DNA of 64,000 bases from Protonemura montana (taxonomy: Eukaryota; Arthropoda; Insecta; Plecoptera; Nemouridae): contig OX387606.1 in the NCBI GenBank assembly GCA_947568835.1, positions 17,517,940-17,581,939 on the forward strand. Reading direction: 5' to 3'. A program made the position numbers and the translations under genes. Numbering within the stretch: position 1 is the first letter of the stretch; each line of letters starts with the position of its first letter. Shown here in pieces: positions 18,735 to 61,600 of this stretch. The notes under the pieces were generated by a model. That model saw nothing but the letters and a program-made list of their open reading frames with translations, made no database searches and was not told where the DNA came from.

Positions 18735-21017
18735 TCACATCTTTCTTCTTGCTTTAAAAGTCTCATATTCCTGTCTAGCCTCGCAAATGTTTTTCGTAAT
18801 CGAGTACAGAACCTCTACACATTGAGTGAAGTACTTCATTCTATCTCCCAAGATTCCATAATTGATATCAAACGTTGCTTGATCAAAGTTTGGTAGGTTC
18901 ATGCCTGCCTTAAGTGCCAACTGATACGCATCATCCATTAGCTTAACTTGCTTCACAATAAAAATTAAAGTGAATTCCATTTTAATGTCAAAATCTTCAG
19001 GTAGAGAACCCTCCCAGATCTTGCCAAATATCTTAACGGATACTCTGATAATTTCCCGAGTAACATTAGGGTTACTTATGATCTTCTCGACAATCAGCAA
19101 TCCATTTTTCGACAAAGAAGAGAAACACATTCCTTTCTCGTTGGCATCAATCTCCTGCAATGAGCTAGCACCGAACGCAAGGCACACTTTTGATTCGGCT
19201 ATTACTAAATTGTTGTCGAATGTTATACCATTTTTTGTTGCAATTTTTATCATAAAGTTGTCAAACCCTAGCCTGTTCAAAGAGCCTCTACCAAGATCCC
19301 TAGTGGCTTCTATAACAATAATTCGATCTGCTTTGTTCATATTTGCAAATGAGGTGGGCTCCACCTTTACTGCGTCGTTGATTAAAACACTTCCAGCGTT
19401 ATCACCAAAGCGCATTTTTGTGGTACCATGACTGTGATGTTTATTAATCCTCACTACCCCTGAAAAAAAATCATCTGGGTTGTTTATTTTATTTATACTC
19501 TTGATGACCTTAGCATTAGCCTCTACGGTATCAAGGCCTTGGCGCGTATTACGTGCTAGTTTGTCATATCCCTTTCTATGGCGATTACTCCTCAAATTTG
19601 AACGAAAGTCGTTCAGTGTGGCCTGCTGTGTTTCTGTGATAATTGTGTGGGCCGTTCGGAAGTTAACAGCGGACATACTGAAGAAAAGAACATTTGATGA
19701 AAATTGCAAGACATCTAGCGTTGTCAAATTTCCTTCCACATACTTTTGGCGCATATTATATGCTGCTGTTCCAATCCCGATCCCGTTTACACCCAGGGAA
19801 GAAATCTGTAGTGCGTTTACGACAAACTGACCGACCGCACCTAAGACCTGACCTTCTCTTGCCAGCATGGCCGTTGCACTCGTTGCTCCCATTGCAAAAA
19901 TCCCGAGGGAACTTCCTGCTATAGTGATGTATGTGTTTCGGGCCTCGGCATTGTCCAATCCTATGTCCTCGTCGTGTTTGCTTCGGTCCACTATGTTTTC
20001 AATACCACGACCCACACCATACACTCCAGTCACGGCACCCCCTATTATTGCGCCTACCATGATGGGTGCAGCAACAGTGATGGCAGGAATAAGCGCTGCA
20101 ATTCCAACGACACCGGCTCCAACCCCAACCAAGGTACTGACCATATCACCAGCGGTCAATGCTTTGTTGATACCTTTGCTGGCAGGCGTCTCACCAAACT
20201 CAACTTGGACTTCGTAGTTCTCGTTCCCGTTGTATATCCCTGATGCTGGATAGCAGTATGGTCCTTTCTGGAGTTTGTTACCTTCAAGGTACTGATCCCA
20301 TCCTCGGTAAACGCGCTGGTTTCTGTCGATGAATCTCACTTTATCAACGCCATCCTCGTCGTTTGGTACACGGAAGACTGCCTCGGGCAAGGCGTAGAAA
20401 GTTTTTTTTTGCTCCACTTGTGTTACAACAAATATCACTGACATCAATGTGCCATGGTACTGATTAACAATTTGAGAAATTTCTTCAAATATTGGTTTTA
20501 CTTCTTCTAGAATTTTTTGTGAATAGGAATTATGAAAGAGAGTATCTTCTGACACTGTAATGCAGTAAAGAGCGCCAGCGATATCACAATGTAGCTTCTT
20601 CATCATTTTGGTATTGTTTTCATTGTATATATCAATTACATTACATATTTCAGAAATGTGAAACTCACGGATGAGATATTCTGTCGTTGTTGCTTTATTT
20701 ATGCACTTACTTTCCAATAATGTGATGATACTTTTTTTTACATCTTTTTTCATAGCTGTATGACAATCATTTTCCATGATTTTTTTACATAACAGTTCCA
20801 TTTCTTTCAACTGCTTTGTGTTATATCCCGTCTCCTTGTTTGTTGGACTAGCCTCTTCTTCCGGAGGACCATGCAATGCGAAACCGATGTTCTTTAGTAG
20901 ATAAACTTGTTCACTGGGCTTGAAACAATCCCAGTCGCGATCACCCAAGTTGTCGTAGAACTCTTGTTGCATATCTCTTGCTTGTTTCACCCATGTCGTT
21001 TCCATTTTAGATTCCAT
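18735..21017 (-). CDS. DUF4781-like protein of 760 residues, single exon
   Basis: This is the longest open frame in the window and the only complete gene without introns. I recognise the central part as resembling the insect DUF4781 family (function unknown), from memory rather than a search. Residues 1-275 are hydrophilic, with a region at 45-75 rich in charged residues. Residues 288-336 form a glycine/alanine-rich hydrophobic block with GVGAGVVGIAALIP and GAIIGGAVTGVYGVGRG. This is followed by DRSKHDEDIGL, NAEARNTYITIAGSSLG (about 356-372), and further hydrophobic patches at 390-420 and 434-450. The C-terminal 300 residues are mixed and end in a basic KARRKM. There is no N-terminal signal peptide. 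The hydrophobic core could be membrane-embedded or buried; the sequence does not decide. The start at 21017 is the first in-frame Met, and a second Met is codon 5. The gene converges on CCT3. Confidence 0.8.
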   Translation of the reverse strand: MESKMETTWVKQARDMQQEFYDNLGDRDWDCFKPSEQVYLLKNIGFALHGPPEEEASPTNKETGYNTKQLKEMELLCKKIMENDCHTAMKKDVKKSIITLLESKCINKATTTEYLIREFHISEICNVIDIYNENNTKMMKKLHCDIAGALYCITVSEDTLFHNSYSQKILEEVKPIFEEISQIVNQYHGTLMSVIFVVTQVEQKKTFYALPEAVFRVPNDEDGVDKVRFIDRNQRVYRGWDQYLEGNKLQKGPYCYPASGIYNGNENYEVQVEFGETPASKGINKALTAGDMVSTLVGVGAGVVGIAALIPAITVAAPIMVGAIIGGAVTGVYGVGRGIENIVDRSKHDEDIGLDNAEARNTYITIAGSSLGIFAMGATSATAMLAREGQVLGAVGQFVVNALQISSLGVNGIGIGTAAYNMRQKYVEGNLTTLDVLQFSSNVLFFSMSAVNFRTAHTIITETQQATLNDFRSNLRSNRHRKGYDKLARNTRQGLDTVEANAKVIKSINKINNPDDFFSGVVRINKHHSHGTTKMRFGDNAGSVLINDAVKVEPTSFANMNKADRIIVIEATRDLGRGSLNRLGFDNFMIKIATKNGITFDNNLVIAESKVCLAFGASSLQEIDANEKGMCFSSLSKNGLLIVEKIISNPNVTREIIRVSVKIFGKIWEGSLPEDFDIKMEFTLIFIVKQVKLMDDAYQLALKAGMNLPNFDQATFDINYGILGDRMKYFTQCVEVLYSITKNICEARQEYETFKARRKM

Positions 21018-24000
21018 TTTCCGTCTATTTTTCCAACTAATATTATTTATTGCTATTTCACTTATTTTGTAATTAAATTAAATACAACTTTGATGACGAA
21101 GTCTTTTTTACATGTCGCCTGTCCTAATCGCGCTGTGGCCAATCCCTCACTGCTAAAGCGACTGCTGACAACGCAATAGCACCAAGACTGTAAGTGTAAG
21201 GCTAACAATGCATTCCACAAATGAGTGGGATTCCCCGAATTAGACCACGAGTGGCTAGCTAGCCAAGTGACAGGCTAGCAATTTATTATCCAAGTATATG
21301 TTTTTATTTTTTTGTAATTACATGGTAATCTGGCCTGATTACCGAACTATGCTTCTTTCGATTTTCTCTCCTGATAACAAGATAATAAAAACATCCCATA
21401 TAACCCTGAAAGGAAAGGTTAAGATAAGCGTTATTAATTTAATTGCGTGAATGCTTCTAAAACGAATGGGTAGAGAAATTTGGTTCGTCCGAAATTTTTC
21501 CCGAGGATGGAGCGGTGGGGGTGGGGGTAGTATTTTTACGGCGCCTTATGTGCGTCATGTTATTTTTAATTGTTGGGAAATGTATATAATTTCGTCCAGT
21601 GCATGGGTGGAGATTTTGAATAAACCGTGAAAAAGTACTGGTGAGCTAACTTAATCCTCAATCACGCAACAGTGGCTGTTGGGGAAAACAAGGTAGTAGT
21701 AATGCGCATACCCGAACCCGATTTAACGTAATAACGTGTTAGCGTACCTGTAAGAGGTTACTAGCAATTGATACCTACTAATCCATTAAGACTATCTATG
21801 CTGCTCTATTATTATTATTGTGGGGTTTAGCGGCATGTCAGCTATTAAGCTATTTGTGCCTTACGCTGCTCTACCCACGATAACATTGTATTATGGCAAA
21901 ATACTAAAAATTGTGGCAACTGATAAGATAAGTTTAGAAAAAGAAGCCGGCGTTGAAAAGACTAATACTTACATGTGTGCGGCTAATTATAAAATTGATT
22001 AAAAGATATGAATTATATAAGAATGCACGGATATGGATGGCAATGGCTGCATCTGTGGTATAGATCAAAGATGTTGATCAAATGATCAAACGAAATATGT
22101 CTATGCCGAGCATAGAACCTAAATAATAAAACATTTAAATAGAGTAAGATCGAATCAACAATGAAAAAAAAAATGTTCAGCAACGGGCGCAGAAAGGTTT
22201 AGAGTTCAGACAGAAATAATCTGACATTCACTCTCCCAGAGGAAAACTGTTGGGGAAATTCTATAGAAACAAAAATGGTACCAGAAAATGCACTCCGTGG
22301 GGTCAATTACGTAGTTTGATGGTTGCATTGGTTGCAGTTGCATGCAACAATTGGTTCACCTATTTTTGAGTGAGCGATCCGAGTGTGCCATTCATCACAG
22401 ATGCCTTTTTTGCTATGCTCAACGAAAAGTCCCATCAACAAAAAATGTAAGTTACCCTGTAAATCCAAACTGCGTAGATTTTGGGGGAAATCAAACTCTT
22501 TCGATTTTCCTCTATGGCATTCCTTTTTTTTAATGTTGTACAATCTATAAAAATAAGTATCTTTATATTCTGAACCTATAACTCCATAGTCAGACTCATG
22601 GTATCTTTGGTCAGACTACTTGAACTTACGTCATTTTGTAGCAAAATAAATCGCAGGGGTTGACCATGTCTCACCGTAGACCTTACTACCGGCCACTGGC
22701 ACGAGTGCAGGCGAGCGCTGTAATACGTTAGCTTATTGCTTTGCTTATAGATGGCGGTGGTGCAGTCTAGCTCGATTCCCCCTCCCATCGGTGAGGCATT
22801 TGATCCTAGGCAAACGTCAGTCAGAAGAAACGGAACATTTCATGGGTAACTCGTCAATATCGCCTCTGAGACTATGCAAATTGTTTTTATAAGAGAAGTT
22901 TATTCTTTACCGTGTTCAGTGTTACGAAGATTGTTTCGTCTCCACGGGTTTGGATCATGAAATTTAAGCAACGTAATAGACCAACCCCTTCCGTCATCTA
23001 GCTAGGCCATCACTGGAAGAATCCAATAGTACCAAAGTTCCTACCAAAGAACGGTGACTTTTCGGCGTGTACTCGAGACTCGGCGACTTTTGCATCATAT
23101 TCATCACTGATTAATTTCACAAGGTAAAGAAACATCTGCAGACCAATAATATCTCAGGTTTACGTTTTATGGGTTTACGACTATCACAACGATAACTTCG
23201 CTGCGAATTTCAGGGTAGAAGACCTAAAAAATGTGCCGTGTACTATGTACTATCAAACTTTTACATTAATGTAAATCATATTTCAGTTGTTTTGGTACAT
23301 TTAACTTTTAAGTTTCGTCTTTTTCGTAACGTCTTTTCCTAATTACCGTAACCTACTCTTCCCATTGAGGTGCCGTTGCACAAAATCAATTTGCACGTCT
23401 TATTTAATTCCTTTGTCTCATTTTAGATCTTTCCAGAAGTGACGGTGATGTCAATTTTACAATTTGCTCTTTATCACGGGTTTTAATTTTTTTTTTCGTA
23501 GACTTCCTTTCGTAATAGTTCCGAAATATTTAGTACCTATGAATATGATCACTATCTTTTTTATGTACACGTCGATGAGCATGACACGATTTACAAATTT
23601 GCTACGATCCAAAAACCCGTTTTGAAACATGTGTACCTACATGTGGGTACCATGGGTCTTACCTTGCACAATTTAATGATTTAATTTCAACTTCTAACAT
23701 GGGTACTTGCTAGTTTCTACTTGGCAATGGATTCAAAAATGGAATTATACAGAAAATGAGTCCACGTACAGTACGTACAAACCAGCATTGCAAATTTTTC
23801 CAGTAGACCTGAATCGGATCATCCATCATCCATCACAATATTTCTATGTGCCTCCATAACCACTCGCGGTTTCACCCTAGATTCTTGCCGCTCGCAAGAT
23901 TACATCTAGGTAATGGCTAGATTCATTGATAACAATCTGTTCAAGTGATAAAAACACAATAGGAAGATTAGCTATTTGTGCTACTCCATTTATAACATTT

Positions 24001-26665: not shown

Positions 26666-29600
26666 ATGGGACGCTACACCGGCCGGAAATGTCGCCTGAT
26701 CTCAATGTTCTGGCTGACGGCGTTCTTCTTCATGGTGGAGATTGTCGTCGGCTACGTGACCAACTCGATGTCGCTAGTCGCCGACAGTTTTCACATGTTA
26801 AGCGATGTGGCCGCCCTCGTGGTGGCCTTCCTTTCCGTTAAGGTGAGTAGCGTTGATCCGGCAAAGTCGCGGAGCTACTTAAAAAACCTTGCAGTTGTTG
26901 CATTGCATACACCTGTTGCGTTACTAGTCTCCTGAATTTCCAAAGTTCCTGCGCTAACTTACACCGGCTCTGATGGTGCAGCAAAATGGTGTCGAAACTT
27001 AAAACTCTTGACAGAGCTGAACGCTGTAAAAATTAACTCGTTGATTAATAGTAAGTGGAAAGCATATCTTATTTTGGAAATGGAGCTAGACTGGAAAAAT
27101 GTGCGACCAAACCGGGATACGAATCCCGGGCCTTCCAATTGCTGGTTGGGTGCTCTACCAACTAAGCTATCCAAGCCAGATTCCAGCTTGTCAAGAGTGG
27201 GGTAGGGGAGACCCACAAGGAGATCCAAACAGGAGATCCAAAAATAATGTCAGTCATTTTTAGTGTATCTATTTCTGAAGTGGATAAAAAATAATCCTCT
27301 TGATTGTTTGACATTACTAATATTAAACTGAAAAATAATATTCTTAATAAAAAAAAAAATGCGGCTGGAAGAAAAACAAACTGTATTAGGATGAAATCTT
27401 ATTTAAATTGCAAAAGCTTGCAATGAGACGATTTTAGTGTATTTGATGAGAATGACAGTTCTTCAAGGAGAAGAACCATGAGGCTGTAAATATTCACAGT
27501 CACTCTGATTCCAGTGACGCTATATCACGTCACAACCTGTCAAACTTGAATAACTCCAATTTGACGTTGGATTCGTTGCTGTATCGTCTCGTAATCGTAA
27601 TTGATTATCGTAATAATCGTATATAATAATAATCGTAATCGTATCGTAATCGTATCGTAATCTTTTTAAAAAGCCAGTGTCCAGATAGCTCAATGGTTCA
27701 GAGCAACACCCGCGAAAGGTGGAGATCAGGGTTCGAGTCAGCGTTTGGGCATTAATTTTTGAGACGGTTATAGTGTTGTTAATAATAAAAAAACAAACTG
27801 TATTTATTGTTGAGACTGGCGAAAACAATTAGCCAAGGTAATTATATTTTTGGAAGATAGACTTTCATTGTCTGCTATTATATCATAATCTACCAGCTAA
27901 CTGTGATCAACTATTCTTCTGTAACCAGAGTATAATCTGGTACAAGAGTTGTGAGTAAGCTAACTCCAGATGAGATATGCTTAATTTGTAATACTAATGA
28001 CTTTTATTACTAATGACTTCTTAGACTCATCCATATCAATTTACACTTTGATACCAGTTTCGGATTTCAACGGGGTTATGAAATACTATACACAGGCACC
28101 TGTACCTAGGCAAGGCTTGCGCTTACATAAACGAGGAATATAGGATAAATGTAAGATAAGTGTTGAAATAGGTTTCATGCTCAACATATCAATAGTTCAT
28201 AAATACTCATTACACTCCTCGTTAATATTTTTAATTGACTAAGTAATTCTAGTCTGATTAGCTATTATCATTTTCCACACATTACTTTAGAAAACTATGA
28301 CCTCTCCATTAAATCCATAGGATATAATCTGTTTTTTGTCAAAAAAATCACCTCTAGACAATATTGTTGCTGTTGTCTCACTAGATATATGATATGATCC
28401 ATGTCAAGTCATCTCTTGATCCATGTTGATTGATGAGCTACCCACATGTCGGGAAGGTAACTGAGCAAATTTCCCCTCTCATATATAGGTAGGCATGCGT
28501 TTTGTTTTGTCCCCATCCCTCACAAGCACTGACACACTCCATTCCCATAAGATTTTGTACTGCCTTGATCTTTGCCTAGGCTAGACACCTACACACCTAC
28601 AGCAAAACAAGTAAATCATGCAAATTTTGAATCCCTCCTAAGATACCATGTTGACTTCTGGGTACAATGTAAACACAGAAAGCAACTAGGATGAAACGTT
28701 ATTTAAACTGCAAACGCTTGCAATGTGCGGGGTATTTTATTATTAACAACACTCTAACCGTCCTCGGGGAACTGTCATTCTCATCAAATACACTAAAATC
28801 GTCTCACAAAGCCAGTGTCCAAATAGCTCAATGGTTCAGAGCAACACCCGCGAAAGGTGGAGATCGGGGTCCGAGTCCGCCTTTGGGCATCAATTTTTGA
28901 GACGGTTATAGTGTTGTTAATAATAAAAAACAGAAAGCAACTCTTTATTTATGCTTTAAAAAACCCATAGGTCTTGTGTGGTCATGCCTACCGAAATAAG
29001 GATTTCTCCAAACTACACAGCAAAGATTATTTTAAAATCCCTGATATCTTAAAATTTTAGTTTGTAAATTCTCTTAGCTATTTTAGTCGTTTTCCTCAAT
29101 TTCCCATACCCCTAAATAGTGAGACCCATCCACATAACACCCAGATGGCCAAGGATGTGCATCTGGTTCACCTGGTTGGCTACTTTATAATCACTCTTCA
29201 GGGCTAAATTAACATTGTAGGTACTGTGATTGTAAATGTGTAATTACCTGGAATAAAACATAATTTTATGTTATAAACTTTATTGTATTAAATTATAATT
29301 GGATGTAATATCGTTGACGTCGTAAATTTCTTATAAAAAATGCAGAGTAAAAGTTAAGGAGCTTGCCAACCAGATTCCATTCTGTAGATTCCATTCCATT
29401 CGGTCTTCTAGCAGGTTACAAAATCTGCTCTACCTGCATCTAAGCCCGAGTAAGAACTTGCTCTAACCTAATTTTGGTGTTGTTTAGATGTCACCTAAGA
29501 AGTGGTCCAAGAACACATTTGGCTGGGCGCGGGCCGAAGTGTTGGGCGCGCTGGTTAACGCAGTATTCCTCGTCGCGCTGTGTTTCTCAATCACAGTCGA

Positions 29601-32600
29601 GGCCGTCAAACGATTCATAGAAGTCGAGAAGATCCACAATCACATCCTCATCATCACAGTCGGTGTGCTTGGGCTCTTGGTCAACATCATCGGACTCTTT
29701 TTGTTCCACGGTATGTCTGGATTCCTACTACAATCTGCAAATGTTTCTAGTAAATTGGATGTCCCTTTATTATGCAGTTTTTGTTGGATGGTTTTCTAGA
29801 AACCAAGCTCTAGAAACTTTGGAAGGGTGTGATTAAAAAAATTCTTTAAAAACTTTTCTCTTTCAAAACTAGTGCTAAAGTTAGATAAAGTAGACACGAG
29901 TCCAAAACCTGTAATAACCAATTTCTTAGACCAATTGTGGCTTTTGACAAAGTTTGAGTCATTGTTTTGGTAGAAGTTTGTTTACTTGTAAAGCTTTTAC
30001 TTTTACTGAGTACCAAGTGTAATTTGTTTCTCATTTTTTACATACAAATTAGTAAATATCATGTTTTAATGCTATTTTTGCTAGTTGTGAACCAAAGAAC
30101 AAAAGGTACCTAATTAACAGAGCGGCAACCAGTGGTAGGCTGTTTTTATTTTGCTATGTTATCACAGTGTTACACAAACTTGATTAGCGAAGTATCTTGA
30201 ATCGCAAACATAACTAATGTTACGATCGCATTTCAGAGCATGGTAGTGCCCACGGCCACTCGCACGGCGGAATCTCTCGCAGCCACACACGGCTCACCCA
30301 ACTCCAACTGGTTGCCACCGACGACAACGAAAATGACGAGACTTTCCGGCCGCCGCCGCCGATCACCAAAAAAGAGAAGGAGGCCAACGGCGGCGGCTCA
30401 TCTCAGATGAACATGCGCGGCGTCTTCCTGCACGTGCTTGCTGACGCCCTCGGCTCCGTGATCGTCATCTGTTCGGCGTCGATAGCGTACTTCACCGACT
30501 GGGAATACAACGACTACATCGACCCGGCTCTGAGTCTGGTTCTCGTCGCTCTGATCTTGAACTCTGTGTGGCCGCTGCTGCAGGAATCGGCTCTGATTCT
30601 GTTACAAACGGTGCCAACACATATCCAGGTGGATGCAATTCAGCACAAGCTTTTGAGCGAAGTCGACGGCGTTCTGGCCGTGCACGAGTTCCACGTGTGG
30701 CAGCTGGCAGGCGACAGGATCATCGCTTCTGCTCATATTAGGTAAGTTGCTTTGCTATTTGTGACTTAAGCCTGAAAAAGCCAAATTAATTAAAAAAAAC
30801 TGATAGGAGAAAACCATTGATACTCAATAAAATTCTGATAATACAGTCTGATGTCTCTGGATATTGACAACATATTCCAAATTAATTGAATTGAACCAAA
30901 CAAAGGATTGACAAGTTATTGATTGTTGAAATATAGCAAGCAAAAACATGCGTATGGTATAATGTTTGATTAGGAAGATTCCCTATTCACACTTGCTCTT
31001 TCTGCCAACCTGATTTTATTTGTATAGCCTTCTAAGTTCGTTAATGACTACAAATACACACATACTTACTTCCTGCCAGTGTCGTCATGTTTAACAGGAA
31101 ACAAAATTGGGTGACAAAAAAGTTACAATTCTAAAATCTACAAGTTCTACGATTGAGTGAATGTTGCTTTTTATCATCCACTCCAATTCTCACACATGTT
31201 GTTTGCTATCAGATGTAGAAACCTGTCCGAGTATATGAAGATTGCTGAGAAAGTGAAAGAGTTCTTCCACAACGAGGGCATCCACTCAACGACGATCCAG
31301 CCAGAGTTTGTGGAGATAAACCCATTCCCTGAAGACAACATTGGAGAGCAACCTGCGCCCAGCGAAGACTGCGTATTGGACTGCCCTAAGACTGACAAGC
31401 CGTGCAATCTCTCCACCTGCTGCGGGCCTGTAAAGCAGGTGAGACTCAACAGAAACGGTTGGCTTCATCTTACACTGCTAATGTGATCTTTTTGAATTAG
31501 TAACAAAGTAAAGAGAAGAGGGAAGGCAACATTCATTAAGGTCAAAGGTATGGTGTTGAGAGAATTTGCATTGTATTATGTCAGAAAAAGTAATCGTGTC
31601 ATGGAGGGAACAACTTCTTTCTATAAGTAGAACCAGATTTTGAGAACAAGCTTGTATCCGACAGGGGTAGGGCTTTATAGGACAGTTCTTGATTATTTGT
31701 GTTCCAATCCTTAGATCCAATCGGCAATCCAATACATTTTTTAAAATTGAATCACAGTGCAGCCGAATCACAGTTAACTTTAGCTTGGTTTAAGTGTCAC
31801 ATTTTAATTGTGTCAGTGGAAACCGAAAGCTCCGTTCAAGTGTCGAATGATATTTTTCAGAAAGAACAAAGGCGTAACCGAAGTCGATTACGAAGGATAG
31901 TATGCCAAGAACAAAACCTGAACCAATGAGTGGAAAATCCAAACGTTCACTCCCTGGCTATCCCACTTCCTACCTGCAATGTGACCTTGCCTGCCTTGCA
32001 CAAGTAAACAAATAATTACGACTCGTTGGCTTTAAAAGTATGGTCGCGTGCATTTGCCTGGTTCGTCAGCGTCATTTGCCAATGATTTGGTTTTGCGATA
32101 TATTTTTTCTGCAATAAGAATTTTAAATTCCACAAGAAACTTGTGTCCTTCAACAATGAAGACATTGGCTGTCACTATAGTTACTGATAAATGTTTTGGA
32201 GTGTTGCAAACAATTAGTTTGATGACCTATCCTAAAGTTGCGACTTGTGTGCTAGAGATAAGCTGTGAAGCAAAAAGATAAAACTGTAAAAGCAAGACTA
32301 ATGGATTTAATATCTCACAAGAAATAAGCAGAGGTAATGGTATTTATTCTTGATGATTCACCCACTTTACATGGATTGTTGTTCAATTACCTACCGTTAG
32401 GGTAAAATTTAGCTAGCAAATAAAATGCATTTTGAGTTGTTTTCGTCGACCAAACAATAATGTTCACAGCCAAGTTAATGAACGCTATGACTTTGGAAAA
32501 GTAACAACCCGCTGCTTCTTGCCCTCAGGGACGCGAAACTCCGTCACCCGGCGATACTCCCTACCTGTGCCGGCAACGTAACACGGCTGGCCACACACAT

Positions 32601-49611: not shown

Positions 49612-52600
49612 CTAACACTCGTCAATGTGGTCCATAATGGCATACGATGGCTTTCGGGTCAATGTCGTACTTTGTTGGTCCGATTCGGGTAGTGAGTCAG
49701 GCGTTTTGAACGCCATCGAGTCCGGTTTTGGCAATTTTGATTGCACAGTCGTGTCTTCGGATACCCACTCACTCTCCGGGTCAGAGAAAATGTTTGAGTC
49801 GCCGTTTGTTAGATTATCTTCATCCCATGACCCGTCTGATAGGTCAAACTGACTGTTTTGGTCAAACTCGTCTGCAAAAAAGTTACAACTTTGGTCAACT
49901 TTGCCAGTAAATTTGCATTTTCAGCTGCTCAGATCCTTAAAATGATAAAGAACTGCAATTAAATAATTTAAATCCTGGTATCTTATATCAATTTTGATGT
50001 ATTACCTTCTCCAACAAGAGTGTGCTGAGAACGCCACATCGAGTCATTCAACGGGTCATTCCAATCTTGATCAAACTCCAGCTGGACGTTGTTCTCTTTC
50101 TCTTCTGGTGTCAGCATAGCACTCGAGTCAGTGTCGGTCACATCAAAGATCTCTGTAACCTTTACCTGCAAACACAAACATTAACTTGAATTGACTATAT
50201 TTGAAGAGCTCCTTCAATTCCTTGCAAGGAAATACCATTCGGTGTTTGCCTGGAGCTAATGTAATGAAGCCTTGAAGAATTGCAATACCAGAATAACTCA
50301 AAACACTCCCATGAAGGCTTTATAGAAATTTCAACGTTCTAAAATGTTCCCAGAACTTCACTATGTGGTAGTCATGGTCCAGACTTTCATATCTGCATTC
50401 TACATTGCAAAGATAGATAAATAATGTTTCTAAACATCTGCTCACAATGCTTTGCCGACCCATGAATTGGATCAGCCACCTGGGTCACACAGGGATTGGC
50501 GATCCTCTGTGCGCATTTCAGAGCAACTGATTCAATTCACAGACCAGCAAGGTGCCATGCTGATCGACTATTAGATCCTCTTTTAAAATAAATCCTTGCA
50601 TCCGTTCGCACCTTGTTGTTCTCGTCCATGTAGTAGAAAGCCATGATGGCCTCGTGTTGTGCAGTCACTTGCAGGATGTGCTCGAAGGTGTCGTCGCCGT
50701 CACCACGATTCAATGCTAGGCTAGAGCAGCGGCGTGAGAGAGTGCGTGGGTAGTTCCGCGCAGTCGTCTGGTCCAGACCCGACATCTCCCTGCAACACAC
50801 ATAATGGGTCAATACTTTTTGGGAAGTCTTTCGGCAAATGTTAGGGGGTTTTATTTCAAAGCATGTCAAAATGTAACCTTTTGCAGGTGATTTAGAACCT
50901 CTGTTAGCAGAAAAAAGACCTCCTAGGTACCAAAATATAAAATTAAAAAGTTATATATTTTTAAACTTCTTCCATTTCAAAATTATTTGTTTTAGACTCA
51001 CCTTTCATCAAGGTTCAACGTAAAGTTGAAATTCATCTGGCTCTTTCCTCTTTTGAGTGCCAATGGAATTTGGCTGATGGATTCAATATCATACTGGCCT
51101 AGAAGAGTAACAGAAAACTGTTAGATTCAAGTTTTTATAATTAAAGTAAAATAAAATTTTGATTTTAACACAAAATACTGTCGACTGCAAGGAAATATTT
51201 TGAAAATTGCATTATTTAATGCAATTTTCTTACCTCCGTATTCCGTGAAAGCAAGGTTACAGTTGATGTGTGCGCTGATCTGTTGACGCTTCATATTAAC
51301 GTTGTAAAGCACACGGGTCAGTTGGTCCATGAACACCTTGCTCACTTCCCAGACTCGGTTGCTAAGCTTCGGGGTAAGAGCCATACATCTGAAAGCAAAC
51401 AATTATCATTAGCTGCTGAACAGAAAGCCATAGGCAACTTTAAGAGAGTGCAAATGCACACTCTGCTGCTAGGCTTACCTCTTCTTTTGTTCAATGCCTA
51501 AAAACCGTAATCGAACATGCGAAAGGCAAAGGCCAGCTACTAACGGATGACTTCTCATTGTAGCTTCAATTTCATATGACTCCATCTTAGGACCAACTAC
51601 GCTAAAACATGCATCATGTCACCAACTAATTCTAACGAGCTTCAGACTATTCAGATTTGACAGATTCGGTCACTTGGAAATCAGACAACAATTGCTGTTG
51701 TGTTATGTCAATTAAGACTTAGTACGCAACTTTTCATGGCCGGGAAACAATTGCACCAAATATTTCAATATTGGTTTTAAAAATGTTGTGAATCAATGGT
51801 TGTCCGAGTCCCAAAGGCTATGTGACGTCGCAGATACTTACTTGGTAATTGTAGCGAATACGATATCAGCCGGTAGAGTGTAGGGGAGGCTGAGCACAGA
51901 GAGCAGTTTCATGCCTCGATGCTTAAAGATCCAGTTGACAAGACCCTTATTAGCCGTATCAATTGCATCTTGGAATATTGACAATACTGTGTCTGGTAGA
52001 TTGGCTACGAGAGCTTCCTATAGATTGCAAAGAGATATCTTTGATTAGAATTTGCTTTTAATTTCTCAAATTCACCAGATCTCTGTTGAGGGAATATTTT
52101 AAACACAACGAGGTAACTGAGTTAGATTGAAGTTAAACTCACTTGTCTATGTACTTTACATTCCACGCACTGAGGATCGTACTCGAAACTCTCGTCCAAT
52201 TTCTCGGAAACAGTAAACGTGGACTGCACAGCCAAACACCGAGTGCAGTTAAGAAGATTGTTTCGATGTAAAAATCTCAATGCATCGTCGAATCCTTGCT
52301 TGCACATCTTCGCCAGAATCTCTGGCTTGGGCGGGAAAAGAATCCTTGCGAATCGGTAGATGTTCTGTCTAGACAGTTCGATGCTAGTATTAGCCACGTT
52401 GACCTGAAAAAGAGTTTGTGTGTTCAAATTTGACCACTCTCATGGAAATACATTTTTAGAGATTCTTATTAAACCCACTTACATGGAAGAGTTGAGAGGA
52501 TAAGTCACGCGGACAGATATCGCTTTCGCCGCAGAAAGGGCTGACTGTAATGGTGTTCTCGTCGAGAGTTGGCAGATTGTCGCTGAATCCGCCATCCATG

Positions 52601-55600
52601 TATCGGACACCATGGAACTTGGGAGGTAGGAGTCCAGAGAATACTGGGATGAAAGCACTTGCCATCAATGCCTGGAACAATTAAAAATAAACATTTTTCT
52701 TGCAGTTGCTTATTAGAGTTTAGTGCATATTAGACACTTGCATTTTCAGGATATTTTATGCAGCATGGGTTGCTTGCTTTGTCAGCAATATCCAGGCCGA
52801 GTACAGCTAGTCAAGGAATCGAAGCTAGGTTAATTTGCTCACACAATTACTTAATAGAAAAGAATGAACAATGCCATTCTCCCAGCGCATTTGGTTTATT
52901 TTTCATCCAACCTCTTGACACATTCTTTTGATTAGGATTGCAAATGTTGCAAGTTTACCTGCAGCAGATCTTCTTTGCTGTTGAACTGAGAGACAATGAC
53001 GTTCTTTCCGTCGTAGACCCTCGTGAGAGAGATGTGCAACTTTCCATTCACTCGGAGGTGAGCATCTTCGGGCAGGAACTGAAATCAAATTAAATGTTTA
53101 GCACATTTTCTTGATTACAGTGTTGGGTTTGGCAGTTTGACAGGACGCTGGAAAGTCTCACCTTCTCGAGTCCTTCCAAGAGGATGTTTTGTATGTTGAA
53201 GGACGGGCTGAACGGGCCAAGGGTGCTTCGACGGGCCTCCGACACCACCCTCAGCACGTCACTGGTGATTTCACCTGAAAAATAAACGTAGTTTTAGTTT
53301 TAAGCTAGGGATTTTTTTTCTCCATATTATGCATTTAACTTTGGCCTGGTCAAGGTCCTCATTAACTGAGAAATGCCATGCTGCCATTATGTGCTGTTTA
53401 TCTGTTAATTAACCCCTATTTACAGAAGTTAATTAATAAATAATTACTCCCATCAAGGTCCTATCAAAGTGTCAAGTGCACTGGTACATAGTGTAACACA
53501 TAAAAGTGCATTCTACATTGATTAGATAATCCCAATTAAAAAAGATAACTTTGAGATAGGTACAGATGCAACTTGTCTTAGGTCAGGGAAATATTTTGGT
53601 AATTAAATCGTTATTTCGTTTAGTTTAATTAGTATTTTAATTGAATTTTTTGTGATTGATTGTAAACAATTCAGAAATATTTCCAACCCAAGGCAGTTGC
53701 AGTTTAGTTTAGACTTTAGAACGAAAGGTGGAATTTCATGTTTTGTCTGCTGTCATTTGCAAAAGATGACAGAAAAATACTGACCCATTTTGTTTTTATA
53801 GTTTTGCTCTCAATTAATGTCGAACAAGTTTTACCCGAGCCAGACGTTGTGTCCATACGAGCGCAGGAGACAAATACCTACGACGTCATGGCTGAGAGAT
53901 AACAACGTGGTCTATGTTAATTGACACAAGATTATCGCAGGATGAATAATATTTGGTGGTAACTCTAAAGTGAGCAGAATAAGATCTCGATAGTAGCCAA
54001 GCCAACAGTTTCATTCAGATGTTCTACTTCGAAGAATTATTAGATCTAATGAAAATGAAGTATTGCGCTATATCTTTGAAGAGGGAACGGAGATAAGAGG
54101 AATAGATTGGGGTGCCTATTGCCAATAATTGGGGGTGTCACATCCGTTGTAGATAGCTACGCCGAGTGAATCAGTTCTCACGCTTTCAAGGTTTGAACAT
54201 CGCAAACCATTGAGTCGCCCGAATTGACAGTTCAAAGTAAAATCGCTCGTTTCCAGATGTGGCTATGGCACGGGGGTCGGGGTCACCCCTGTGTATACGT
54301 CAACGTCAGAATGTGTGCACTTGTGCACGTCATCTTCGTTATTTTTTTACGTCAGAACAACTGCCGAATGTGTCGATTTGATATGAAATTATTTTCAGAT
54401 GAAGTTTGAACCTTAAAAAGTTATTATCCTTCTTTATTAAAAATTCGAGTGAATGCCCTGTTACATTGTTCTGATAGCTGGCCACCTATTGTTCACAGTC
54501 TTCCGTATGTTTTGGAATTCAATTGTCATGTTATATATATATCAAGGGTCAAAAAGTCGACCTCTACTTTTTCATGAGCGCTGAGAAAAATATCTTCGAT
54601 TCAAACCTATCGTCTAAATCTCGGTGAAAATGCTTTGTCAATCACTGATTCGTATTGACTCATCATCACCGTTATCCGAAAATACATCGATAGCATATTT
54701 ACACAACTTGAGCAACTGTTTAGATATTAATTTATACGAGCAATTAAATAGAAAATATCGGTTGTAGAGGGAACGTGTTGACATTTCTCACACTGCCGAT
54801 TAATGACCTCCCTCGTAGTCGATGACAAATGGAGAGTTGTGCGTTCAAACGAGGACGACAATGTATTGTTGAATACAAACACATTTTTCTCGGTTCATGC
54901 GTCAACAAAAGACTATTTCGTAAAAAACCAAACAAACAAGACAAATGTATCGAAAGATCTTTCTATTATTCAGTGCTGATTTCCGGTAGTGATCTTTGCG
55001 GACCAATTAAATTCAGCAATTACCAACGAAGCTGTGAGCACAGCAACACTTGTATCCATTCATTGACGTCAGCCATTTTAATCAGGTCAATAAAATGCTA
55101 AACGTCACTAGAAATTTGAAGAAAATAAGGCAATTTACGAGGCATCTTGACCCCACCGAGATAGAAAAGCGTATTGGTGAAATGTTGTTTATTTGGTCGG
55201 TCTGAATACACGCCAGTTATGTATCTTGCAGAAACTGCGCGGTGTGTCAAGAAAAAGTAGAAGGCTATCGACCCTTTGCAAAACATGTTTATTAACATGG
55301 AATCAAAATGTTTTCTGTCATGTTTAGTAGGAAAACAATGTGCACGTATAGTACCTGTGTTTCTGAGAATTCAGATACACTTGCAATCAAATACAATGTG
55401 ATAAGCAATTTCCATATTCATATTCATATTCATATTCTTTATTCCGTAACACTATACAATATAGTATGGAACATGTCAAAAAAGTATAAAATAGTAAGGT
55501 ATAAAATATATGTAAATCAAATATAAATTATAAATTTAGAGCTCAAGAAATTCTCTAATGGTATAAAATGGGTGATTAAGTATGACTTAACAATACTTTT

Positions 55601-58600
55601 AAAGTTATTTGAAGTTGGCCCCCTTGGCGTACATTCAGATGGTTTATTAAAAATTAAAGAACACATGTATTTAGGGTTTTTTTCGGAAAAACTAAGGTTC
55701 GTAGTAGGTAAAAATATTTTATTTTCTGATCGTGTAAAGTAGTTGTGTCTTTGTGAGACTAGAGGGAAAAGAACTCGATTGTTATTTACAAAGAGAGCTG
55801 CATCATGTTAGGACACTTCGGACCATCACCGCATGGTTTGGCATTGGGTTATTTTGGATGAGAAAATTAAATATATATATATTGGATTTTATTTTCATGT
55901 GATGCAAGTTCCTGAAATTTAAATTTGGAAACATACCAATTTCAACAATGAACTGAAACTATGATACAATTCACACAAAGTAAGAGAAATAGTAAGTATT
56001 ATTTGCAAATTAAATATAAATTGCATTAGAAAGGCTAAGGAGTGAAAAACACTCTATAATATAATGATTTTTACAAATGGTTTAGCCATAAGAATGCACT
56101 ATTACGTTATTACAGGCAAGAGTCATTTGGCTCTTGATCTGAGACAGTCGAAAATAAACCAACTCAGCACACCGACAGTACCGTAACATCGTATGACCAC
56201 GCTCGTGCTCTTTTCATTGGTCCATTCCCGAGTGGCCACATTCCGGGAGACCCTTTCAGGTGTGAGACCCTTAGAGGTACGAAAAATTGCGCGTTGCGGC
56301 CCACGGCCACTAATCCGTCGAGGCCCTCAACTTCGCTTTTTTGCTAAGGTATCTTTTAAATTACTACAATTAGCACGAACTTGGAACTAAGAACGCATTT
56401 TTAAAGTTGCCGAAGCAGAAATAATTGCGCATTTGCTATATAGTATCATCTATCGCAGACCTTACTCGATGTTTTAATGGTAATTACGGTAATCCCTTTG
56501 CAAGGCTAACATAATCCCGCAGAGCACGTGTACTGCCCCACGTGGTTGTTTCAGCCGAAGCTAGTAACGCATCGCGCCACTCACTACACGCACTTTTGAC
56601 CTACTTTTGCAATGAATGAATGAATGCAGGCAATTTACGTTCGTTTATGCAGTCAATTGCCGCCACCGGCATTCCGACCTTAATTTCTGCCCACAATACA
56701 ACACCTATTCTTGCTCTTGAATTCAATTGCGGTAAAGATGCCAACGATATGACCAAACGATAAGATATGCAAGTGGATTTTGAGCTATTCCCTAATAGAT
56801 TGTTCTCGAATCTTTCTTAGATCTTTAACTTTTGTAATGATCTGTAACAATTTTCAAGTGCGAAACAATCGAGTGTCGCGCTGTGATCTTTGCTTTGTTC
56901 TCAAATCGGTTAACTCTGCCAATGACTGATAGGTATTGTGAAAGATGACGCACAATAACAAACATGTAATGTACTAACCAAGGGGCAAGTCGCACAAAAT
57001 TGATGCAGCTGCGATGGCGCCGAACGACGCACCCGATATTTTCTCGAGCAGTATATGAGGTGCGTATTTTTTGAAACAAACTGCCACACCCACGTGGTAG
57101 ATGCCCAAAAAACCGCAGCCCGCGAATGACAAGTTCATCATTGTTATGCAATTGTTGTCTGCAAGGTTATTGTGATTTGTATTTACGCAGCAAATGGCAA
57201 TGTTTTTTTTAAACGTCTGTTATAATCACGTTCGCACAAACGCACTAGAAATTGTCCACACAACGAGTTTGTTTTTATTTAAAATTTTGTTGAAAACTTA
57301 ACAATTCACACCGTCTTTTGTTACCAACCACTCTCTAGGGGCACCAACTAGATACTGCTATGTGATTATGACAAGAGGCACTAATATAGGTGGTGTGGTC
57401 ACATAAGCCCCTCCCCCGATGTCGTCACTTTGAGCTTGAGATAAACAAAACGCAAAGTGGCAAATTCAAATGCAGTTAAGCGCATTTTCTGAAATAGTTA
57501 TCGGAGATGAGATAAGATCGAGTGTAGATACAAGATTCGATAAATGGTTGATTTGAATTCGATACTCTGAATTCTATGTGAAATGTAAGGCGATAGCGAT
57601 CTTATCACTTGTAAAGTATTTATTAAATTATATTTAAGATATTAATCAACAATTCATAGAATATGACAATTTATAAAAATCATCGTACATCCATATTTTA
57701 ATTGGACATGGTAGAACTGGTAGAGATTTCTGATGTTGAAGAGTAGGTATATCTATCTATCCTGACCAAAATAGCTGCTTTTTTAGCCAAATTGAGATAA
57801 AAGTGAAAACTCGAAAGTGATTCATTCATGTTTACTCCCACAAAATCCAAGAGCCAGGGGGGAAGTTAAAATTTCCCTTCCCGTCTACCCACGCCAGCGC
57901 CCGTGGAAAATGCCTGTAGAAAATGGTTAAAAACGGTAATTTTTCCACCGAGGCTTCGACTGTGATCTCTGGACAAAAAAAAAACCTCGGTGTATTTTAT
58001 TGGATAATCAGTCGGTGAATATGCATTTATTTCTATCGTTATTTTTTAAAACAAAAACATCTTATAAAGGAGATAATCGGCGTAATCATCTTGTGTGTAT
58101 ACTTTTCAAATTGCCATACAGTAACCCCTATCCACTCTTTACAAGATTAAATCGTTATCGCCGATGGGTTATCAGGGGTTACAATCACAGAGTTAATCCG
58201 CAGATATTCTACAAATAAAATGACAGTGAAAATCAGCGCTTTGAGCCAAGATAGAATGCCATTCATATTCCACACCGAATTCTGACGAATCCAGGGTACA
58301 TTATTTTTTTAGCCCCTGTATCTAAGATCGTTGAAATGGATATAAAAACTATTATTTCAAGCCATTTCCTTATGAAAACGTAAAGACCCAGAGGCATAGG
58401 GTTTCACAGATACAGGGCGTGGAGATTTTGTTTTCATTGTGACCTAGTTTTGGGCTTGAGGGCCATGTACCACTCCATTGACGCGTACTTACCGAATGGC
58501 ACCTGACACAAAAGGCAGCTAGCGGCCATGGCTCCTGCCGAAGCCCCAGAAGTCTTATTGAGCAACAGGCTGGGCGCATATTCTTTGAAAGCAGAAGCCA

Positions 58601-58652
58601 CTCCGACATGGTAGATACCCAAAAATCCGCACCCAGCGAACGATAAGTTCAT
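49612..58652 (-). CDS. bmm: Adipose triglyceride lipase (PNPLA2-type patatin lipase; insect brummer), complete, 11 exons with a duplicated first exon
   Basis: Hydrolyses triacylglycerol at the lipid-droplet surface. Exons in transcript order: 58493-58652 (first exon a), 53162-53274, 52959-53078, 52483-52671, 52143-52403, 51842-52017, 51234-51388, 51002-51098, 50612-50789, 50006-50165 and 49612-49871. Joined length is 1,869 nt, 622 residues; human ATGL is about 504. The patatin domain opens with [17 protein letters not shown] (oxyanion loop, about 2-18) and GASAG with nucleophile Ser38. The catalytic Asp157 lies in [12 protein letters not shown], followed by [14 protein letters not shown] and [17 protein letters not shown] later part, [13 protein letters not shown], matches the ATGL lipid-droplet region. 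The last two exons (about 138 residues) form an Asp/Glu/Ser-rich tail absent from my recollection of human ATGL. A second first exon at 56979-57141 could replace exon 1a. Intron 1 is about 5.2 kb from exon 1a and 3.7 kb from 1b. Confidence 0.92.
55407..55790 (-). pseudogene. LINE 3' remnant with (AATATG)n end in ATGL intron 1
   Basis: Minus-strand frame from about 55747 to 55517 reads [49 protein letters not shown] and PLENFLSS. It matches the layout of a LINE reverse-transcriptase C-terminus. The 3' side ends in (AATATG)n, seen on the plus strand as CATATT repeats at 55413-55437. It is 5'-truncated and diverged from the other two remnants. Confidence 0.6.
56979..57141 (-). CDS. bmm: Alternative first coding exon (1b) of the ATGL/brummer gene
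   Basis: A 54-codon exon starting with two Met codons (57141) and ending in phase 1 before GTTAGT, exactly the phase of exon 1a. It encodes [19 protein letters not shown], then [17 protein letters not shown] and ends CDLPL. By eye, 38 of 53 positions are identical to exon 1a. The oxyanion loop GCGFLG is intact. The nucleophile elbow is GASFG rather than GASAG, with the Ser kept (Ser39). Spliced to exon 2 at 53274 it gives a 623-residue lipase. Without splicing it hits a stop two codons later, so it makes sense only as an exon. No further patatin exon lies between it and 58493, so this is an exon duplication with its own start rather than a second gene. Confidence 0.85.
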
Positions 58653-61600
58653 TATTTCGACTGGCGAAACCTTGAAGAGGGCGATAAGACAGAGATAAGA
58701 TCAACAATTTCAACCGTTATCTCTGTGTAGATGCGCGATCTTGCGCAAATGTAGCACGGATTTTTAATTTCGATATCAAAACGCCTGTTTTGTTTAACCT
58801 ATACGTAGCACATGGGTTAACTGCAAAGACGTAATACGATACCACTCTCGTACGCTAGTACAATGCGGGTTGTGTAAGACTAAGAACAGTGTGATGCCGA
58901 GTTGAACTTGAAAATGAATTCCCTATTACTGTGATCGAATGATTACGGGTTCGATTGGTTTCTGTATAATGAGATGTTGTGTATAGCTCCGCCTACTCAC
59001 TCATATGATTTTATATTCCAGCTTTCAGCACTAAATAACAAACAAGTATTTTTTTATTAATAATTAATATACATCGTTTGCGTATCGCGATGGGATTGTT
59101 TTCGATTAATTCCAGCACTTAATAGTGTTTGTGAAGGATCAGCTTCTCATTCTTCGAATGTTTATTTTCCATTGTTTGCAATCATTAAAAATTGCTTCGG
59201 TTTTTGATAGTTTTAGCTCTGAAGGAGCTGAAATTGAAAAAGGGCGACATTCAATCACAGAAACTAACGGCGAAGGCCGACAATGATATGAAATTTTGTT
59301 CTAAACATTTCTGGTTGTCTGTTACTTACTTTGTTTCAGCTGTCGGTCGTTATTGCTATTGTCGTTGCTTCAACTGCTCGAAACACGTGTACTTCTTGTA
59401 GTCAGGTCGATAAACTTAACAATTATTGGACATTGTCTCGATTTGAGATAATAGTGATATTCAAAAGACCCATTTAATAGAAAAAAAAATCCGATACTGA
59501 AAGTCTAGCTGCTCGTGTCAAAGTACACAATATCTCAGAACTTGGTGTGAACTCATTGCTCTGTAAAGAAATGATTCGGCATGAGTAATATCATAATATG
59601 TGCTTATCGATCAAATTTTTATTCCGTGCCAATTGATTATCTTTGGGCCTGGGTCCCGCAGTCCAAGCAAGTGAGAGCTTTTTTCTGACTCCTACGCCTA
59701 CTGAGGCAGGTGTCGTCTTTTAATAGATTCTCTTTATTCTTTATCAACTTATGTTATGGGGATTTCCTACCTTAAGACACAATTCTTAAATTGCCATATA
59801 AAACTCTGCGACATACAAAAATAAAAAATAGGAATGATGCGTATGGGTATGCGTATTCATAACAGCCTCCGAAACAATCTTAACAGTTGTATTAACTTAA
59901 CTTGTATTGCTTCAGCTACCGGACAATGTCTTCATGCCTAAGCTGAATAACCGTAATAAATAAAAATAAATAAATAAATAAAATAAAATGCTTTTGGAGC
60001 AATGTTATGTAGTTTTAAACGTTCACAGAAAATACCAAACCCTCTATGTCACTTTGAAATGGCATATTCCCTCACGGGCAGGGTGGTAATCTGTCATAAA
60101 ACCTGTGATAAAACTATAAAATCTGTGCGAATAAATAATTGTTGTTAGTGCCATCGCGGTTTGGCACGGCCATCTAAACTTCTAGTGGGCGATTTCACCA
60201 GCACCATTGCAACGGCGATTGGGTATGGGAAAAGCCGGCGCAGTAACTTCCTTCAGGAAATTAATTTTGAAAAAAAAAAACACATTTTTACACGCGAAGA
60301 ACAAGAAACGTAGTGTTGAGCACTGGACTTAATTTGAAAGTGACTTTATTTGGTGACATAGAAGTGGGAAAAAATATGTATGGGGCTACTTATACACTGA
60401 CCCAAAAACACGGTTTAAAAGTTAAGCCCTCACCTTTCCGTACTCAAATGTTATACGACAGGCAGAAAAAAAATAGTGGCGGCTGAGAAATACATGTCAT
60501 CGCCCATTCAAATTAAATCCTTTATTTGGCGTTAGTGAAATCGGCCATAAAAACACCTAGAGCTTATCCCAAACCTTCAAATAAGTCGTCGGATGGTGCC
60601 CGTTTATGTCAATATTCAATACAATATCTGACGGAATGTATAATTGGTTTCTTAAAAAGTTAATTCACACATTGAGTACACAGCTAAGTGCTAACGCCTA
60701 TAGCTGAAAAGAATTGCGTACAAAATCAATGTGATAAAATTCCCATGACAAATGTCTATACAGCTGCGTAGAATTTCCCCGGCAATTTGATAAGCATTTT
60801 TATGCTCATTTGATATGCATTTTTATATCTAACCTACCATACTATCAGTGCTAAATTATATATACTTTGCATTCATTACACCTATATTTTACTTGCTAAG
60901 TTCGTAGCTGTAATCACGCCTAATTATACAATGGATAACGCGCAAATATTATTGTGTGTACAACAGTTTTTATCTGGTACAAATCCTTCAACTGTTCAAT
61001 TTGTTTTGATAAATAATTTGTTATTGTGCACAGTTATCAAACACGACACGTGCAGAAAGATTATTGAAAAGTAGAAGCTGTCGTTTGTAAGGGAAACGCC
61101 GACACGGTTTTCCGACTACTATTAAATTGTTATCACGATTGCTTCAATGATTAGGTGTACCTACGCAAACAATTCTGTATTGCATTACATAAAATTGGTT
61201 ACTTCAAAACGAACAATTTTTTTAGAACATCGTATTTTAGTATTTCTGCTCGGGGTGGAATATTCGGGAAGTCCACAAGCATTTCCTCAACTTCTTGTGG
61301 TGCGAAAGAAATCACTTATGTCACAAGTCCATGTTATTATATATTTTTTAAGCTATGGCCGTCGTAGAGACGGTAGGTACAAAATAAAGACTGAAAATGG
61401 ACGCAGGTTGGGCCAGTTTTTCAATGTCTGGCTAATGTTTTTCAACTACTAACTACCAGTTACAGACTCATCTGCCTGGTCAGAATCAGATACTTATAAG
61501 TATCTTCATATTTTCATCTTTGCTTCCGGTTCTTGACACTGTCAAAGTGGCCCCGAGATAATTAATCTAAATTGACTGCAGTGAAATTTGCTAGTTAGTA

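Follow-up and report, generated by a model that had tools for sequence, protein, structure and literature searches.

Two candidate alternative first coding exons carrying the catalytic serine in an ATGL/Brummer-type lipase gene of Protonemura montana

The window, a stretch of 64,000 nucleotides of Protonemura montana DNA, contains one ATGL/Brummer-type triglyceride lipase gene (49612-58652, minus strand) with two homologous exons, 1a and 1b, either of which can supply the N-terminal part of the enzyme, including its oxyanion loop and nucleophilic serine. We consider it likely that both are functional alternative first coding exons of this one gene, which could then probably make two enzyme forms. 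The best reading of the sequence is that the two copies are old and have been selectively kept.

Gene organization, splice signals and copy number

Exons were placed by GT-AG sites and reading frame, which gives 11 coding exons per transcript, all on the minus strand. The alternative first coding exons are 1a (58493-58652, 160 nt, donor TCG/GTAAGT) and 1b (56979-57141, 163 nt, donor TTG/GTTAGT), and the coordinates given for them in a preliminary description of the region proved exact when checked in the sequence. Both exons end in phase 1, after the first base of a codon that is completed as Gly by exon 2 (53162-53274, acceptor TTTTTCAG/GTGAAATC). The shared body continues with exon 3 (52959-53078), exon 4 (52483-52671), which carries the second catalytic residue, the Asp of the DGG motif, exon 5 (52143-52403), exon 6 (51842-52017), exon 7 (51234-51388), exon 8 (51002-51098), exon 9 (50612-50789), exon 10 (50006-50165) and exon 11 (49612-49871), which includes the stop codon.

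Joined to the ten shared exons, 1a yields one open frame of 622 amino acids and 1b one of 623, each with a single stop at 49612. The preliminary description had held that each exon has its own ATG, that both end in the same phase and that either can join exon 2, and the two open spliced frames agree with this. Exon 1b opens with two Met codons (ATGATG). Read without splicing, it meets a TAG just beyond its donor and encodes a 55-residue peptide without the catalytic Asp. A possible cassette exon, weakly indicated, lies in intron 6 (51479-51601, minus strand); it is 123 nt long, open and of phase 2-2, has a strong donor (GAG/GTAAGC), a poor acceptor and no Pfam match, and would add 41 residues to the lipase.

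Donors and acceptors were scored with a general splice matrix. The donor of 1b scores 0.98 and ranks last among the gene's 11 donors, the other ten ranging from 2.78 to 8.34; 6.9% of the GT dinucleotides on the minus strand score as high. A matrix trained on the gene's own sites is too small for the first exons and places both of their donors at about 0.1. Weak donors are common in alternative exons. The weak donor is nevertheless the softest part of the case for the use of 1b.

The sequence ahead of the two exons was inspected for signs of transcript starts. Upstream of 1a, the nearest ATG begins 161 nt ahead of the start codon, and upstream of 1b 263 nt ahead, leaving ATG-free stretches at 58653-58810 and 57142-57401, respectively, that are suggestive only. 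Gaps between ATGs on the minus strand reach at least 250 nt in 0.9% of cases and at least 150 nt in 5.5%, so that the stretch is unusual before 1b and not before 1a. Acceptor-like sites above the cut are found 18 and 168 nt upstream of the start codon of 1a within the 400 nt scanned, and none in the 400 nt before 1b; the cut is one that eight of the ten true acceptors of the lipase gene pass and two do not. The lack of an above-cut acceptor before 1b is compatible with 1b being the first exon of its transcripts, possibly under a promoter to itself, and a non-coding exon upstream of 1a is possible. The motif TATAAA occurs at 59015 and at 57675, which we judge to be weak evidence in DNA so rich in AT, with no clear core promoter for either exon.

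The genome search covered 258.5 Mb in 34 contigs and scored only the best candidates, so that all match counts are lower bounds. Among the best candidates scored, exons 2, 3 and 4 and the first part of exon 5 each have a single match at E values up to 0.1. Exon-1 sequence matches at 1a and 1b only; the same two places are returned among the best candidates for a 1b query at E up to 10, and a nucleotide query of 1b plus its flanks finds no place other than its own. A query with the human ATGL N-terminus likewise finds 1a (60% identity) and 1b (50%) and no other place among the best candidates scored. A repeat search of 53000-60000 returned nothing that bears on either exon.

Active-site motifs and divergence of the two exons

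The Pfam Patatin profile matches each exon alone (E 3e-8 for 1a and 1.8e-7 for 1b), and PF01734 covers the spliced N-terminal domain of about 170 residues with E values of 3.2e-23 in isoform a and 3.1e-22 in isoform b. Both exons encode the oxyanion loop GCGFLG (GXGXXG with Phe) and a GXSXG nucleophile motif, and the catalytic Asp is found in the motif YMDGGFSDN of shared exon 4; the catalytic residues are thus kept with either exon, as the preliminary description had stated. The serine motif is GASAG in 1a and GASFG in 1b. Human ATGL has GASAG, so that only 1a of the pair matches it. In other patatins, GXSXG tolerates varied residues after the serine.

The position of these motifs can be viewed against published structural models of ATGL, which are predictions (PMC10828586 and PMC12871566). 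In PMC12871566, the lipid cavity has a deep prong, formed by helices, and a shallow one, with the serine at their junction and the oxyanion loop at G14-G19; basal cleavage is described there as preferring sn-2, with sn-1 also cleaved in the presence of a co-activator. An earlier homology model (PMC3198459) brings Ser47 (GXSXG), Asp166 and Gly14-Phe17 together. Mouse ATGL loses activity with F17A, according to PMC10828586, and the equivalent Phe is kept in both 1a and 1b. The same source maps the co-activator response to N209, I212 and N215. These residues lie outside exon 1, so that a co-activator difference between the isoforms is less supported than a pocket difference. Among solved structures with this domain, a search by sequence returned no ATGL and two weak matches, both to another patatin.

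Exons 1a and 1b differ at 15 of 53 residues and at 51 of 159 bases, and the exon comparison upholds the count of residue differences in the preliminary description, including the change in the serine motif. The base differences fall 13, 7 and 31 on the three codon positions, and 22 codons differ synonymously. All 15 residue differences lie within positions 20-53, a clustering with P 0.0003 under random placement. Residues 1-19 are the same in both exons, even with synonymous differences in 10 of the 19 codons. The frozen residues 1-19 and the varied residues 20-53 look like a fixed chemistry combined with a variable pocket wall. Directly after the serine, at position 39, 1a encodes Ala (GCA) and 1b encodes Phe (TTC); a single base error as the source of this Phe was rejected, since no Ala codon can become TTC by fewer than two changes.

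The likeness of the two exons was also followed into their flanks. Seven of the first eight intron bases after 1a and 1b are alike (GTAAGTAC and GTTAGTAC), which the donor site itself would explain. The 300 nt after 1a and after 1b have a similarity score of 10, against a mean of 10.3 in 100 shuffles. In the 300 nt before the exons, the local score of 14 equals the highest of 100 shuffles (mean 10.1); the stretch concerned is AT-rich and out of register, and we see no clear similarity in it.

Age, constraint and readings of the exon pair

Divergence between 1a and 1b was estimated with NG86 (dN 0.23, dS 2.5) and by ML (dS 3.7); LWL85 and YN00 gave no estimate on exons this short. Synonymous change is thus saturated, implying that the duplication is old. 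When 51 changes were placed randomly on 1a, 15 or fewer residue changes resulted in 0 of 5000 runs, and a stop was created in about 82% of runs. With a transition bias, and with either exon as the starting point, the count was again 0 of 5000, and about 75% of runs created a stop. Under a softer null, with 26 neutral changes on one copy, the residue-count test alone was passed in 1032 and 1042 of 5000 runs (about 21%). A joint test required no stop, the first 19 residues unchanged and at most 15 residue changes. With half of the changes neutral on one copy, 0 (1a) and 1 (1b) of 20,000 runs passed it, and with 13 of the 51 changes neutral, 231 and 196 of 20,000 did (about 1%). These results indicate that both exons have been under constraint over most of their history. 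The preliminary view that neither exon is dead is supported by the kept catalytic residues, the low dN relative to dS and the joint test. As a main reading of 1b, a pseudo-exon was rejected on the saturated dS, the frozen residues 1-19 and the same joint test.

In the arrangement that we propose, a single-copy ATGL/Brummer lipase gene would carry two old first coding exons derived from a tandem duplication, each bringing a start codon, the oxyanion loop, the first helix, the nucleophile strand, the catalytic serine and the following helix. In transcripts that start upstream of 1a, 1a would be joined to exon 2 and 1b left out; in those that start upstream of 1b, 1b would be joined to exon 2. 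Because inclusion of both exons (160 + 163 nt) shifts the frame, their use would be mutually exclusive. The two proteins would share the catalytic Asp and the remainder of the chain, and would differ at the 15 residues of the exon-1 segment, which are predicted to fall in the helix that follows the oxyanion loop, in the turn leading to the serine, at the position directly after the serine (Ala or Phe) and in the next helix. We infer that each isoform may have lipase activity, with differences between the two in expression and in acyl-pocket shape, and with a possible preference for chain length or position. As a tentative extension, doubtful on present evidence, the pair might represent an old exon switch conserved across a large insect group, in which the GASAG and GASFG pockets give tissue- or stage-specific lipases of one gene that differ in chain-length, position or co-activator dependence. 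Relatives were looked for in viral contigs and prokaryote genomes, as stray host DNA, and none was confirmed there.

The main rival to a difference in pocket preference is a weakly active, regulatory 1b isoform. With Phe next to the serine, lipase activity might be reduced or lost, and 1b would then encode a catalytically weak or dead Brummer form that serves as a regulator or decoy, competing for example for the lipid droplet or a co-activator. This is consistent with the replacement of GASAG by GASFG, a bulky Phe at the start of the post-nucleophile helix, and with the other catalytic motifs, whose retention should let the fold stand. A dead enzyme, however, needs neither the oxyanion loop nor the serine, and both have passed unchanged through saturated synonymous divergence; the variety that other patatins accept at that place of GXSXG also speaks against it, and we regard a weak or dead isoform as rather unlikely. 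Slightly more credit, still well short of favoring it, is due to a single promoter upstream of 1a, from which a non-coding first exon would be spliced to either 1a or 1b as mutually exclusive second exons. The acceptor-like site found 18 nt ahead of the ATG of 1a and a strong donor at 59330 (score 10.8 with the gene's own small matrix) would suit such an arrangement, whereas the 400 nt before 1b offer no acceptor above the cut, a cut that two of ten true acceptors also miss. Both of these alternatives share the core claim of two functional first coding exons and differ from the proposed reading in detail.

Two other explanations depart from that core claim. Exon 1b might be a relic, once used and now rarely or never spliced, that is intact only through the recency of its loss. 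Its donor, the weakest of the gene, and the roughly 1% of runs in which a short neutral phase passes the joint test would allow this; the preservation of an open frame, a start codon, the GT of the donor and the catalytic residues while synonymous change reached saturation, and the near-total failure of half-neutral histories in the simulations, argue against it, and we hold it to be improbable. Least credible by far is a hidden second lipase gene that would use 1b with its own exons 2 onward, in the 3.7-kb intron or elsewhere. Exons 2-5 are single-copy in the search described above, three ORFs scanned in the 3.7-kb intron have no Pfam match, and the single match of exons 2-5 leads us to reject a hidden gene for close relatives. 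A full second patatin gene had been raised in the preliminary description as the finding that would overturn it, and the search for one found no close copy. A constrained patatin N-terminus is useful only when joined to the remainder of the enzyme, which argues for the splicing of 1b to exon 2.

Comparison with known genes and neighboring features

The predicted lipase has the Patatin domain, GCGFLG loop, GXSXG serine and DGG motif of ATGL/PNPLA2 and Brummer (PNPLA, PF01734). It differs from them in having two interchangeable first coding exons, one of which places Phe, not Ala, after the serine. We know of no such first-exon pair in the ATGL/Brummer genes of fly, moth or mammal. Alternative first coding exons in ATGL/Brummer were not recognised among the matches listed in a search of open-access full texts, within the portions available. 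The main texts of PMC6994176 (fly), PMC3669214 (fly and human) and PMC10933143 (silkworm) contain neither the word "exon" nor, with regard to Brummer, the word "isoform". Sequence-database annotation may well include the exon pair as predicted isoforms X1 and X2.

A parallel is provided by UGT1A, whose proteins are unrelated to ATGL. In the human UGT1A gene, variable first exons with their own promoters are followed by four common exons, as outlined in PMC9209448. Both systems have homologous first coding exons with their own ATG, each of which joins one shared body, so that the N-terminal part of the protein varies. Unlike UGT1A, the lipase gene has two first exons only, the catalytic serine itself is among the 53 residues exchanged, and the separate promoters are putative. 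Among insect genes, myosin heavy chain and Dscam have mutually exclusive duplicated exons. Like these, 1a and 1b are tandem, homologous and equal in phase, and their joint inclusion breaks the frame; in contrast to them, each is a first coding exon that supplies an ATG, and 1b has no clear acceptor ahead of it.

ATGL/Brummer governs the release of stored fat in animals. If the exchange of this segment is real, the two natural isoforms would offer a test of its control over the acyl pocket, position preference and co-activator response, and brummer knock-down studies in such insects would have pooled two enzymes.

Other features were recorded in the vicinity of the lipase gene. Upstream of it, at C4:17581500-17591400, open frames resemble, by eye, what we take to be a FAST-kinase-domain-type protein (minus strand) and gamma-SNAP (plus strand). 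A 780-amino-acid open frame at 18738-21077 (minus strand) has a strong match to DUF4781 (PF16013, E 1.7e-81), and an open stretch at 30218-30742 (plus strand) carries cation efflux and zinc-transporter dimerisation domains. Three Rfam tRNA matches lie near each other at 27104-27176 (minus strand), 27679-27751 (plus strand) and 28816-28891 (plus strand), and ARAGORN names only the last of them, as tRNA-Ser(CGA).

The TTAGG repeat is linked to arthropods. In the genome, TTAGG arrays account for 7938 and 7633 overlapping matches on the two strands, compared with 1 and 0 for a backwards control, which indicates an arthropod genome and most probably that of an insect. Among the matches listed, which are all on contig C1, (TTAGG)n arrays are located at several sites far inside the contig on both strands as well as at ends, for example at 916562, 963644, 1101522 and 11637666.
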